From Bacteroidia bacterium (GTDB lineage Bacteria > Bacteroidota > Bacteroidia > Flavobacteriales > Flavobacteriaceae): a DNA stretch of 64,000 nucleotides. The translations under genes were made by a program, and so were the position numbers. The notes below the pieces were generated by a model, which had not been told where the DNA came from, made no database searches, and was given only the letters and a program-made list of their open reading frames with translations. Of this stretch, positions 59,959 to 62,886 are shown in pieces. The DNA lies in the NCBI GenBank assembly GCA_030428865.1, contig JAUIEK010000002.1:1-64000 (forward strand), in the 5' to 3' direction. Within the stretch, counting starts at the first letter, position 1. Each line of letters starts with the position of its first letter.

Positions 59959-61296
59959 TCATTTATCAAACTTCCAGAAAGGAATAGTAATCCATCTTCT
60001 GTTTAAGGTATCTTTTTTGTTTTTACGGATGTATTTTCGCATAATTTTTAGCAAATGCTCTCCTTCTTCTAGCTTTTTTATATTGATATAGGTCTCGAAC
60101 CCTAAGTTTTTATGGTTGTCTGTTGTAGAAATAAAGTGAGAGTTATATGATGCGGTATCAATTTTAAGGGAATATATTTCATTAAAAGTTTTATATAGAG
60201 CTCTTTGAAGACTGTCTCTTTTTTTTCTAGAAATGTTTGCTCTATTCGAAAAGTAAATTTCAGATCTTAATCCTCTTTCATCTATGTCAGGTTTTAGGCC
60301 AGGATTGTAGCTATACAAGCGATCTTCCATATCTTCATCAAAAACAATAAACACTTTTAGATAATTATCTGTTATAACTTTTGATTGGATGGTTGCTTGT
60401 TTAATAAAATCATTATCCTTGATAATTAAATCTTCGTAATTACCTAGATTGGCATGGTAGCTTGAAGAGTTTTTCTTTATATCAATATAATTTGAGTTGT
60501 TATACTTAAAGCTACTTAAGTACAAGATTCCTATATACACAGGAACTAAAATAAAGCTAAGACGTTTGCCAAATTTATTGTCAAGAAAATTGTAAACTAA
60601 AGGTCTGTACAGAAAAGATAAAGTGACAATACTAAATATTCTATATACAGGAAAGTAAAGTTTACTTGTCCACTTTTTTCGCTTTAAAAAACCTTGCGTA
60701 ATAAAGTCAATAAAAGTTAAAAGCATTCCAAGTAAAGTGAATAGAATTAGGCAAACACCAGTGATATTAAGAACATTTTCTAATGCTCCTGTGTAATCAT
60801 TGTTTAAAAAGACAAAAACAATAATGAGTATAAGAACAATAAAAAGGAGGCTTGCCAGAAAATAAAAAACAAAAAGAAAAGAAATAGCAAAAAGAATACT
60901 ACAGTAATCTTCTAAGGTAGCAATGTATTTATCAAAAGAGCCAATTTTTTTCTTAAGGTAATTTGTGAATTTTGTGGAGTACTTTAACTCATTATAATCA
61001 ATATCTCCAGAAACATACCGCAACCCAAGTGCGCCAATCCATAAGCCACGTAAAATAACATGAATTAGTAGATTAGAAATTAAAATCCAACAACAAACTT
61101 CTGCAGCAAACCATAGTAAGGTTTCCACTAATCTACTTTTATGATGTGCAATATCTAGTTGTAAATCAATATGGCCAATGGCAGAGAATAATCCGAAAAT
61201 AGCAAAACCAGAAATAAGTAATTCTAGTTGCCAGCTTTCTTGTTGTAATTTATCTAGAAGTTGTTTAAAAGAAGAATGATTGTAATCTTTGCTCAT
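59959..61296 (-). CDS. large membrane protein of unknown function
   Basis: 445 residues. Hydrophobic segments lie at about 25-45, 63-85, 130-160, 175-200, 215-235 and 243-262; then a soluble C-terminal domain of about 180 residues (DNDFIKQATIQSKV, IFVFDEDMEDRLYSYNPGLKPDIDERGLRSE, ending RRWITIPFWKFDK) follows. I recognise no family. It starts 91 bp downstream of the DUF6249 gene, beyond a terminator, so it probably has its own promoter; it forms a pair with the TIGR01777 epimerase gene. Confidence 0.75.
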   Translation of the reverse strand: MSKDYNHSSFKQLLDKLQQESWQLELLISGFAIFGLFSAIGHIDLQLDIAHHKSRLVETLLWFAAEVCCWILISNLLIHVILRGLWIGALGLRYVSGDIDYNELKYSTKFTNYLKKKIGSFDKYIATLEDYCSILFAISFLFVFYFLASLLFIVLILIIVFVFLNNDYTGALENVLNITGVCLILFTLLGMLLTFIDFITQGFLKRKKWTSKLYFPVYRIFSIVTLSFLYRPLVYNFLDNKFGKRLSFILVPVYIGILYLSSFKYNNSNYIDIKKNSSSYHANLGNYEDLIIKDNDFIKQATIQSKVITDNYLKVFIVFDEDMEDRLYSYNPGLKPDIDERGLRSEIYFSNRANISRKKRDSLQRALYKTFNEIYSLKIDTASYNSHFISTTDNHKNLGFETYINIKKLEEGEHLLKIMRKYIRKNKKDTLNRRWITIPFWKFDK

Positions 61297-61340
61297 AGTA
61301 AACTAAATTACCTAAATATACAGACTTTATGTAAAACAAA

Positions 61341-61366
61341 AAACATCGCATTTGCGATGTTTTTTT
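61341..61366 (-). terminator. rho-independent terminator of the DUF6249 gene
   Basis: A stem ACATCGC/GCGATGT with a 4-nt loop is flanked by A-runs and T-runs. It lies 22 bp downstream of the DUF6249 gene on the minus strand, in front of the next gene. Confidence 0.8.
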
Positions 61367-61387: not shown

Positions 61388-61732
61388 TTATTCTTTATCT
61401 AACTTTTTAGTAAGTGTAAAGCCTACGAATAATCCAATTCCTGCGGTTAAAAAGATAACTCCTGGGTATAAAGCTTCTTCATCAACGTTAAGTATGTTAT
61501 CTAGAAGCATTGCAGTTAATATCCCAGTGCCAATGCCTGTTAAAAGAACAGAAAGGTTTAAGATAAAAACTTTCCAAAATGGTGCAGGATTTTTTTCTGC
61601 TCCTTTTGCAAAAATAGAAGCATCAGCTCCTTTTTCTATTAATGCCAATCGCTCCTTATTTCTTGTAGAGAAGAATAAATAGAAAACTCCAAAGATAGAT
61701 CCAAATATAATTGCTAAAACGGCAACTTCCAT
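61388..61732 (-). CDS. DUF6249-like membrane protein
   Basis: 114 residues. One transmembrane segment at the N-terminus (about 3-21) is followed by NKERLALIEKGADASIF (an ERLALIEKG pattern common in DUF6249) and two more transmembrane segments (about 52-74 and 87-106). No function is known. It is divergent from the ECF sigma gene across 139 bp with a shared palindromic promoter region, so it may be controlled by, or modulate, this sigma factor. Confidence 0.8.
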   Translation of the reverse strand: MEVAVLAIIFGSIFGVFYLFFSTRNKERLALIEKGADASIFAKGAEKNPAPFWKVFILNLSVLLTGIGTGILTAMLLDNILNVDEEALYPGVIFLTAGIGLFVGFTLTKKLDKE

Positions 61733-61775: not shown

Positions 61776-61860
61776 GACAGTTCTATAAATAAAAAGGTTA
61801 CAATTATTACAAAAAAATATTTTTTAAATTTAATGTAACCTTTATAAGTTTAAACACGTC
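61776..61860. promoter_or_regulatory. divergent ECF-type promoter pair with palindromic -35 elements
   Basis: Perfect inverted arms AAAGGTTACA (61793-61802) and TGTAACCTTT (61834-61843) are 31 bp apart. On the plus strand GTAACC is followed after exactly 16 bp by CGTC (61857-61860), 11 bp before the sigma gene start. On the minus strand GTAACC is followed after exactly 16 bp by TGTC (61779-61776), pointing to the DUF6249 gene. The spacing and box type fit ECF promoters (AAC-containing -35, CGTC-like -10). Confidence 0.65.
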
Positions 61861-61871
61861 ATTATAGTATA

Positions 61872-62453
61872 ATGACCAACAACAGCGACCAACCTTATAT
61901 TGACAAAGTGCTAAACGGAGATGTCAATGCTTTTTCTATTTTAATAGAAAAGTATAAAGACCTGGTTTTTTCTTTAGCCATAAAAATTGTTAAGAATAGA
62001 GAAGAAGCAGAAGAGGTAGCTCAAGATAGTTTTATCAAGGCGTATAAATCTTTAAACCGATTTAAAGGAGATTCAAAATTTTCTACTTGGCTATATAAGA
62101 TAACGTTTAACAATTGCATGGATGTTGTTAAAAAGAAAGAAAGAAAATACAATACAGTTAAAATAGATGATGTAACCGAAAACAAAATAGAATCAGTAGA
62201 AAATACATTAGACTTTATAGAAAGAAAAGAGAGAGCAAAAATTATAGAAAGTTGCTTAAGTTTATTGCCAGATGAAGAAAGAACAATTTTATGGTTATTC
62301 TATTTTCAAGAAAATAGCCTCAAAGAAATTGTAAATATCATGTCTTTATCAGAAGCAAATGTTAAAGTAAAGTTACACAGAGCTAGAAAACGACTGTTAA
62401 CTGTTGTAAAAGAAAATGTAGAACCTGAAATTATTGATAAATATGGGAACTAG
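61872..62453 (+). CDS. ECF RNA polymerase sigma factor
   Basis: 193 residues with sigma region 2 (LIEKYKDLVFSLAIKIVKNREEAEEVAQDSFIKAYKSL, then FSTWLYKITFNNCMD) and region 4 (LPDEERTILWLFYFQ, then LSEANVKVKLHRARKRL). It has no region 3 or N-terminal part, as usual for ECF sigma factors. The next gene overlaps it by 11 bp and codes for a membrane protein that may be its anti-sigma factor. It probably activates its own promoter. Confidence 0.93.
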   Translation: MTNNSDQPYIDKVLNGDVNAFSILIEKYKDLVFSLAIKIVKNREEAEEVAQDSFIKAYKSLNRFKGDSKFSTWLYKITFNNCMDVVKKKERKYNTVKIDDVTENKIESVENTLDFIERKERAKIIESCLSLLPDEERTILWLFYFQENSLKEIVNIMSLSEANVKVKLHRARKRLLTVVKENVEPEIIDKYGN

Positions 62454-62853
62454 CAAAGAGAATAAGTTATTAGACGCTTTTACTAAAAAGTATTTTAACG
62501 ATATTAATCTAGAAAATACTTCTGATGATTTTACCAAAAATGTATTAGATCGTATTGCTTTAGAAAAGATGGTTGTAAAAAAACACAAACCTTTGATATC
62601 TTGGAAAATATGGAGTGTTATCTGTCTAGTTATTTTTGGATTAATAATATTCCCGTTTCAAAATTCTGAAGGCAGTATTTTGTCAAAAGTTTCTTTTGAT
62701 TTTTCATTATCAGAATGGTTTTCAAAAGTGTTTACTGTTTTTGATTTCTCAGTTTCTTCTATTACTTTCTATGGTATATTATTCTTTGGAATAATGATTA
62801 GTTTTCAGGTTTTTTATCTAAAAGGATATTTCAATCGTAAAATTTCATTTTAA
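62443..62853 (+). CDS. membrane protein, possible anti-sigma factor
   Basis: 136 residues from the ATG giving MGTSKENKLL, which overlaps the sigma gene by 11 bp; a start three codons earlier is possible. The cytoplasmic part (about 1-45) is followed by two transmembrane segments (about 52-70 and 103-125). The position right after an ECF sigma gene and the membrane topology suggest an anti-sigma role. No known zinc anti-sigma motif is visible. Confidence 0.65.
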   Translation: MGTSKENKLLDAFTKKYFNDINLENTSDDFTKNVLDRIALEKMVVKKHKPLISWKIWSVICLVIFGLIIFPFQNSEGSILSKVSFDFSLSEWFSKVFTVFDFSVSSITFYGILFFGIMISFQVFYLKGYFNRKISF

Positions 62854-62857
62854 AAAA

Positions 62858-62886
62858 AATCCTCTGAATTTTCAGAGGATTTTTTG
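62858..62886. terminator. bidirectional rho-independent terminator
   Basis: An 11-bp perfect stem (AATCCTCTGAA / TTCAGAGGATT, 2-nt loop) is flanked by eight A on the left and TTTTT on the right. It separates the sigma operon from the convergent htpG gene. Confidence 0.9.

Follow-up and report, generated by a model that had tools for sequence, protein, structure and literature searches.

We identified two outward-facing copies of the motif TGTAACC-N17-GTC within positions 61776-61860 of the window (the whole 64-kb stretch of DNA analysed here), one ahead of an ECF sigma factor gene and the other ahead of a divergent gene of the DUF6249 family. Judged from sequence comparison, the locus very probably constitutes a self-contained, autoregulated ECF module of ~1.5 kb, with two back-to-back promoters, an anti-sigma factor and the divergent DUF6249 gene. 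In the mechanism that we propose, some signal would release the sigma factor from a membrane anti-sigma factor, the product of the next gene downstream, and the freed sigma factor would bring RNA polymerase to the two near-identical promoters. The sigma-side promoter would drive the sigma and anti-sigma genes, i.e. a positive autoregulation with built-in inhibition, and the opposite promoter would drive the divergent membrane protein DUF6249. The latter would act as a dedicated third component of the module (a sensor, effector or feedback element) and not as one target among many.

The paired boxes and the sigma gene

The putative sigma-side ECF promoter (61834-61860, plus strand) consists of a -35 box TGTAACC (61834-61840) and a -10 box CGTC (61857-61860), and the putative DUF6249-side promoter (61776-61802, minus strand) of TGTAACC (61802-61796) and TGTC (61779-61776); both are conserved in relatives. 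The first-pass annotation had described a perfect 10-bp inverted repeat at this position, and the letters agree: AAAGGTTACA (61793-61802) is the exact reverse complement of TGTAACCTTT (61834-61843). The arms span 61793-61843, comprise the two -35 boxes plus AAA/TTT, and are separated by an A/T-rich stretch of 31 bp. The outward spacing could likewise be read as described, since GTAACC ends at 61840 on the plus strand and at 61796 on the minus strand and is followed in each case by 16 bp and then by CGTC or TGTC, respectively. Known ECF promoters, including autoregulated ones, combine an AAC-containing -35 box with a GT-containing -10 box at a spacing of 16-17 bp. The boxes reported here have the AAC, the GT and the 16-17 bp spacing and are conserved ahead of the sigma gene, and they are probably used as promoters by this same sigma factor.

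The 64-kb window contains two copies of TGTAACC-N17-GTC, each of them at this locus, against a mean of 0.04 copies in shuffled versions of the window (0 out of 100 shuffles reached two copies). The same two copies are the only exact ones in the whole genome (2.26 Mb, 9 contigs). The looser search that had been suggested, GTAACC-N15-17-YGTC, gave three places, two of them here, and its reversed control gave 26. Ordinary sigma-70 promoters were found 11 times in the region versus 8.5 expected, with a consensus that is reported not to suit the phylum (PMC9723704).

The sigma gene (61872-62453, plus strand) encodes a protein of 193 aa with sigma-70 regions 2 and 4 only (Pfam Sigma70_r2, 1.5e-16; Sigma70_r4_2, 1e-12), the domain content and length (~190 aa) of an ECF sigma factor, and its relatives in the PDB are SigH, SigW and RpoE. 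Its ATG at 61872 lies 11 nt past GTC. On the minus strand, the DUF6249 gene (61388-61732) encodes a membrane protein of 114 aa with three hydrophobic stretches, and its ATG at 61732 lies 43 nt past GTC. The gene downstream of the sigma gene (62443-62853, plus strand; 11-bp overlap) encodes a probable membrane anti-sigma factor of 136 aa with two hydrophobic stretches. Intrinsic terminator-like stems, each with a T-run, lie past DUF6249 (61338-61365, minus strand, 12 pairs) and past the sigma/anti-sigma operon (62854-62885, plus strand, 14 pairs); they close both units and so delimit a module of ~1.5 kb with two outward units. The stretch adjoining DUF6249 (59959-61296) encodes a 445-aa membrane protein with no match in Pfam or NCBIfam.

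The distance from GTC to the sigma ATG was 9-12 nt in 43 out of 50 loci of the genus and in 59 out of 63 loci of the family. Transcription from ECF promoters usually starts 6-9 nt past the -10 box, so this distance would leave a leader of 0-5 nt. The sigma mRNA may thus be near-leaderless, with its start within a few nucleotides of the start codon, and the spacing in relatives fits the earlier suggestion to that effect. In the deeper clade with A as third -35 base (A-type, see below) the box mostly lies further from the conserved sigma residues, and the near-leaderless reading may therefore fail there. Leaderless transcripts make up 5.5% of the mapped mRNAs of F. psychrophilum (PMC9723704).

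Seven of the 50 genus loci (L011, L013, L015, L017, L022, L025 and L039) have ACG, ACA, CTA or TCA at the conserved sigma start in place of ATG, GTG or TTG. In these seven loci the next ATG lies 100-125 nt past the box, and codons 2-33 are conserved with third-position bias. Codon 3 is ATT in all seven, so translation of a near-leaderless mRNA could begin at this AUU.

Conservation in the genus, family and phylum

The genus, as grouped here, comprised 97 genomes, and the sigma gene (E <= 1e-30) was present in 51 of them. We examined 50 loci from 50 of these 51 genomes; in the 51st (G079, locus L066) the sigma gene is broken into two frames, and both boxes and DUF6249 are still there. GTAACC-N17-GTC preceded the sigma gene in all 50 loci, and the opposite box was located at most 200 bp from the sigma gene in 42 of them. 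In the remaining eight the box still precedes DUF6249: seven have DUF6249 further away from the sigma gene, with a box of its own, and the eighth (L019) has a DUF6249-side spacer that is one base shorter. The DUF6249 box was present in 50/50 loci, including those in which the genes have moved apart. GTAACC and GTC are set by the search pattern itself in these genus statistics; the T flanking GTAACC on each side, which the pattern does not set, was invariant in the 48 distinct genus sequences, and the spacer columns were variable in the same sequences.

For the family we used 149 genomes, one per genus, 66 of which (the window's own included) carried the sigma gene (E <= 1e-40). With the window's own locus excluded, the sigma-side box, scored with a spacer of 16-18 before GTC, was found in 64 out of 65 loci, the opposite box in 61 and a divergent DUF6249 gene in 62. 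The sole locus without a sigma-side box (L135, genome G118) has DUF6249, the sigma gene and the downstream gene all in one direction, with a box preceding DUF6249. A comparison of relatives, which had been proposed as a check, shows the boxes kept, with nearly always constant spacing, where the sigma gene occurs. Both boxes, DUF6249 and the sigma gene occur together in 79 of 80 named loci, including L309 and L310 of F. aquidurense.

Across the phylum, DUF6249 was found in 62 of the 198 genomes (57 over the cut-off), so most of the sampled genomes are without it. The 58 loci that we considered include 57 over the Pfam cut-off and one below it (G420, L194); one further genome over the cut-off (G221) was left out since its locus is already in the family set (L088). 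An ECF sigma gene was located near DUF6249 in 57 of the 58 loci, 50 times divergent and 7 times in the same direction. Leaving the third -35 base open, we detected boxes on both strands in 43 of the 50 divergent loci, 11 of which come from the same family as the window and overlap in kind with the earlier sets; outside that family both boxes were present in 32 out of 39. Dinucleotide shuffles of the 50 divergent gaps gave a mean of 0.01 gaps with both boxes (largest, 1), and control stretches of equal length, taken further downstream, contained one lone box and zero pairs. The open-third-base pattern was fixed after inspection of the first 30 phylum loci, and among the 28 loci fetched later both boxes were found in 22 of the 24 divergent ones. 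By this pattern, the other seven divergent loci had neither box (L146, L147, L149, L152, L155 and L188) or one box only (L172). The first-pass annotation had proposed a self-activated ECF sigma factor that also drives the divergent DUF6249 gene, and had made this proposal depend on conservation of the arms and boxes; their presence in 50/50 genus loci, 64/65 family loci (sigma side) and 43/50 phylum pairs argues in its favour.

Among these 43 loci, the two strands had T/T as third -35 base in 35, A/A in seven and A/C in one, and in one clade both -35 boxes are mostly TGAAAC. On the sigma tree, the eight loci whose sigma-side box has A cluster as one group (support 94/89, not starred), which points to a single joint T-to-A change. 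A repeated co-evolution of the third -35 base (42/43 loci concordant) was considered and rejected, since the tree shows one change. In 35 of the 43 loci the sigma-side box and the opposite box nearest to it had spacers of equal length, and in eight the lengths differed; five of the 35 matched loci were one base shorter on both strands and one was a base longer. Finally, the DUF6249 side carries a tandem pair of boxes in nine of the 43 loci, which come from families f15 and f33 (L162, L163, L168, L169, L178, L180, L182, L184 and L185).

The downstream protein, DUF6249 and known ECF systems

The 136-aa downstream protein had no match in Pfam or NCBIfam, and the Flavobacteriaceae protein alone gave nothing significant against known anti-sigma factors (RsiW, E 0.87). 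Its counterparts in other classes of the phylum are longer, and a profile of 26 of them matched RsiW (5.7e-10), DdvA (1.2e-4) and RsrA (0.004). At E <= 0.01, 8 of the 26 counterparts matched zf-HC2 and 4 matched RseA_N, some of them under the Pfam cut-off. A profile of 94 Flavobacteriaceae proteins matched the profile of the 26 counterparts with 97.3% probability (E 2e-11), its columns 11-73 aligning onto counterpart columns 43-103. The downstream protein is thus homologous to class I (ASDI) anti-sigma factors, solely via its other-class homologues, and it probably is the anti-sigma factor of the sigma protein, which it would inhibit.

The complete four-helix class I domain was not recovered in Flavobacteriaceae. 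The alignment begins at counterpart column 43 and the part before the first hydrophobic stretch is shorter (median of 49 residues versus 78 in other classes), which suggests a class I domain without its start. From the alignment, we read the retained part as helices 3 and 4; class I factors use helix 1 for the contact with sigma region 4 and helix 4 for that with region 2 (PMC7406223). The HxxxCxxC zinc motif, which is optional in class I, was present in 0 of the 94 Flavobacteriaceae proteins and in 7 of the 26 other-class proteins. A structure model of the downstream protein showed helices at residues 4-20 and 28-42, with low overall confidence (pTM 0.39), and a structure search with this model returned no useful fold match.

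The DUF6249 assignment is clear by Pfam (PF19762, 5.8e-15; 55.6 bits versus a cut-off of 33). The structure model of the protein has three helices, and a conserved RNxER..LI segment follows the first hydrophobic stretch; as a guess, this segment could lie on the cytoplasmic side and face the anti-sigma factor. DUF6249 exceeded the cut-off in 56 genus genomes, namely 51/51 sigma-positive ones and 5/46 others, with thresholds that differ in kind (E <= 1e-30 for the sigma gene, Pfam cut-off for DUF6249). Our literature search with "DUF6249" returned a plant kinase family only, and with "PF19762" nothing.

We also observed other arrangements of these genes. A divergent DUF6249 gene occurs in five sigma-negative genus genomes (L054-L058) with no ECF gene in the surrounding stretch, and in one locus (L210) a single box precedes a tandem pair of DUF6249 genes, with a short ECF-like gene on the divergent side. 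Six loci (L059, L062 and L064; L060, L061 and L063) have DUF6249-like and ECF genes in one direction, the DUF6249-like genes being weak matches of which 2/6 pass the cut-off. One layout comprises the sigma gene, a membrane gene with a CxxC-type segment and a DUF6249-like gene, followed in L059 and L064 by PF00144; this membrane gene, whose segment was identified by eye, had no anti-sigma Pfam match. The other layout comprises a DUF6249-like gene, the sigma gene and a short membrane gene.

The constant company of an ECF sigma gene (57/58 phylum loci, in more than one layout) and the better conservation of DUF6249 (mean column identity of 51%, versus 31% for the downstream protein) would fit a different division of labour, in which DUF6249 is the main inhibitor or receptor setting sigma activity and the downstream protein is accessory. 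We consider this improbable, though it deserves some weight: it is the counterparts of the downstream gene that match class I anti-sigma factors, and a structure search with the DUF6249 model gave no useful match and no anti-sigma fold, although a missing match proves little. We infer instead that DUF6249 is the dedicated third component of the module.

The module resembles the RpoE-RseA and SigW-RsiW operons in its two-domain sigma factor, its downstream membrane anti-sigma gene and its autoregulated promoter. It differs from them in a second, mirrored promoter that faces the conserved DUF6249 gene, in the Flavobacteriaceae anti-sigma domain being shortened at its start, and in a strict motif found nearly only at the module; it is otherwise an autoregulated ECF/anti-sigma module of a known kind. 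According to its low-confidence model, the downstream protein may also resemble class II (CnrY-type) factors, with a short two-helix cytosolic part before the membrane part; the two helices of CnrY bind like class I helices 1 and 4 (PMC7406223). Unlike CnrY, the Flavobacteriaceae protein has class I homologues at the same locus in other classes, so any likeness to CnrY would be convergent. The SM6 promoter motif of F. psychrophilum is similar in its CGT -10 box, its attribution to ECF factors and a copy ahead of a sigma/anti-sigma pair, but SM6 drives T9SS and other genes, and the available part of its account makes no link to the present motif or to DUF6249 (PMC9723704). In literature on ECF factors in Bacteroidetes and Flavobacterium, the module was absent among the matches listed.

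A recognised class I anti-sigma factor has been reported near only 6% of Bacteroidetes ECF factors, with no conserved one for ECF03, the RpoE-like group of Bacteroidetes, and anti-sigma domains under 50 residues were set aside in that survey (PMC7406223). The downstream gene encodes such a short domain, tied by homology to full-length ones, and, if the bolder reading given below is true, a cut-down class I protein in Flavobacteriaceae would explain some of the anti-sigma factors that seem to be missing in Bacteroidota. With this short domain and with promoters proposed to the base, the regulation of a little-studied type of sigma factor becomes directly testable; the motif can be used for reporters, and DUF6249, a family of unknown function, is tied to ECF signalling.

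Motif copies away from the locus

With one mismatch allowed, the window's own genome contained 54 matches (the two exact ones included) versus 84 for the control, so no further target can be singled out there. In 61 Flavobacterium genomes, the strict motif had 29 copies in 16 genomes (reversed control, 15), and 27 of the 29 copies, in 15 genomes, were at this locus. A stricter motif had 101 copies in the 97 genus genomes (reversed control, 5), 93 of them at this locus, and the strictest genus pattern matched just one of the two boxes in the window. Copies of the strict motif are nearly confined to the module. Off-locus sites in the three surveys numbered 19, versus 28 reversed-control matches, and showed no excess by number (9 versus 8; 2 versus 15 in Flavobacterium; 8 versus 5 in the genus), which points to the module itself as the constant target.

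A bolder reading, which we offer tentatively, is that the three proteins form an almost closed circuit, recurring in different parts of the phylum. The only constant targets of the sigma factor would be its own operon and DUF6249, the latter would in turn influence the anti-sigma/sigma pair, serving as its dedicated sensor or as a feedback element, and the Flavobacteriaceae anti-sigma factor would be a class I protein cut to about two helices.

The boxes could also be real ECF promoters that are read by another or by several ECF factors, i.e. cross-regulation in place of autoregulation, and the seven ECF factors of F. psychrophilum, whose expression overlaps and whose regulons may do so too (PMC9723704), lend this some plausibility. 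We regard it as quite unlikely, because the stricter motif tracks this particular sigma gene (at least one match in 50/51 genus genomes with the gene versus 1/46 without it), the off-locus sites do not exceed the reversed-pattern controls, and the -35 base changes in line with the sigma tree in both boxes, as one event. An operator for a dimeric repressor or activator between two ordinary promoters, although the window does hold a perfect 10-bp inverted repeat, was rejected as extremely improbable, since across 42 genus loci the two -35 boxes lie between 31 and 129 bp apart (which indicates two distinct -35 elements instead of a single symmetric site), the arms separate entirely where the genes do, and an operator would not need the GTC that follows each arm at a fixed outward distance. 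Autoregulation by the adjacent sigma factor is thus the reading that we retain.

Regarding the individual off-locus sites, 8 of the 19 fall inside open reading frames. Among the other 11, two have no assigned gene (L199 and L371), one precedes a CAAX-protease-like gene (L376) and one the gene after the module (L209). The same site in two related genomes (L374 and L375) lies ahead of an alpha/beta hydrolase, and five sites (L226, L227, L354, L372 and L373) precede PF00144 genes (beta-lactamase-family serine hydrolases), one of them via a DUF4440 gene. The hydrolase-linked extra boxes concern secreted or membrane products in single or closely related genomes, and envelope hydrolases have perhaps been added to the targets in places.
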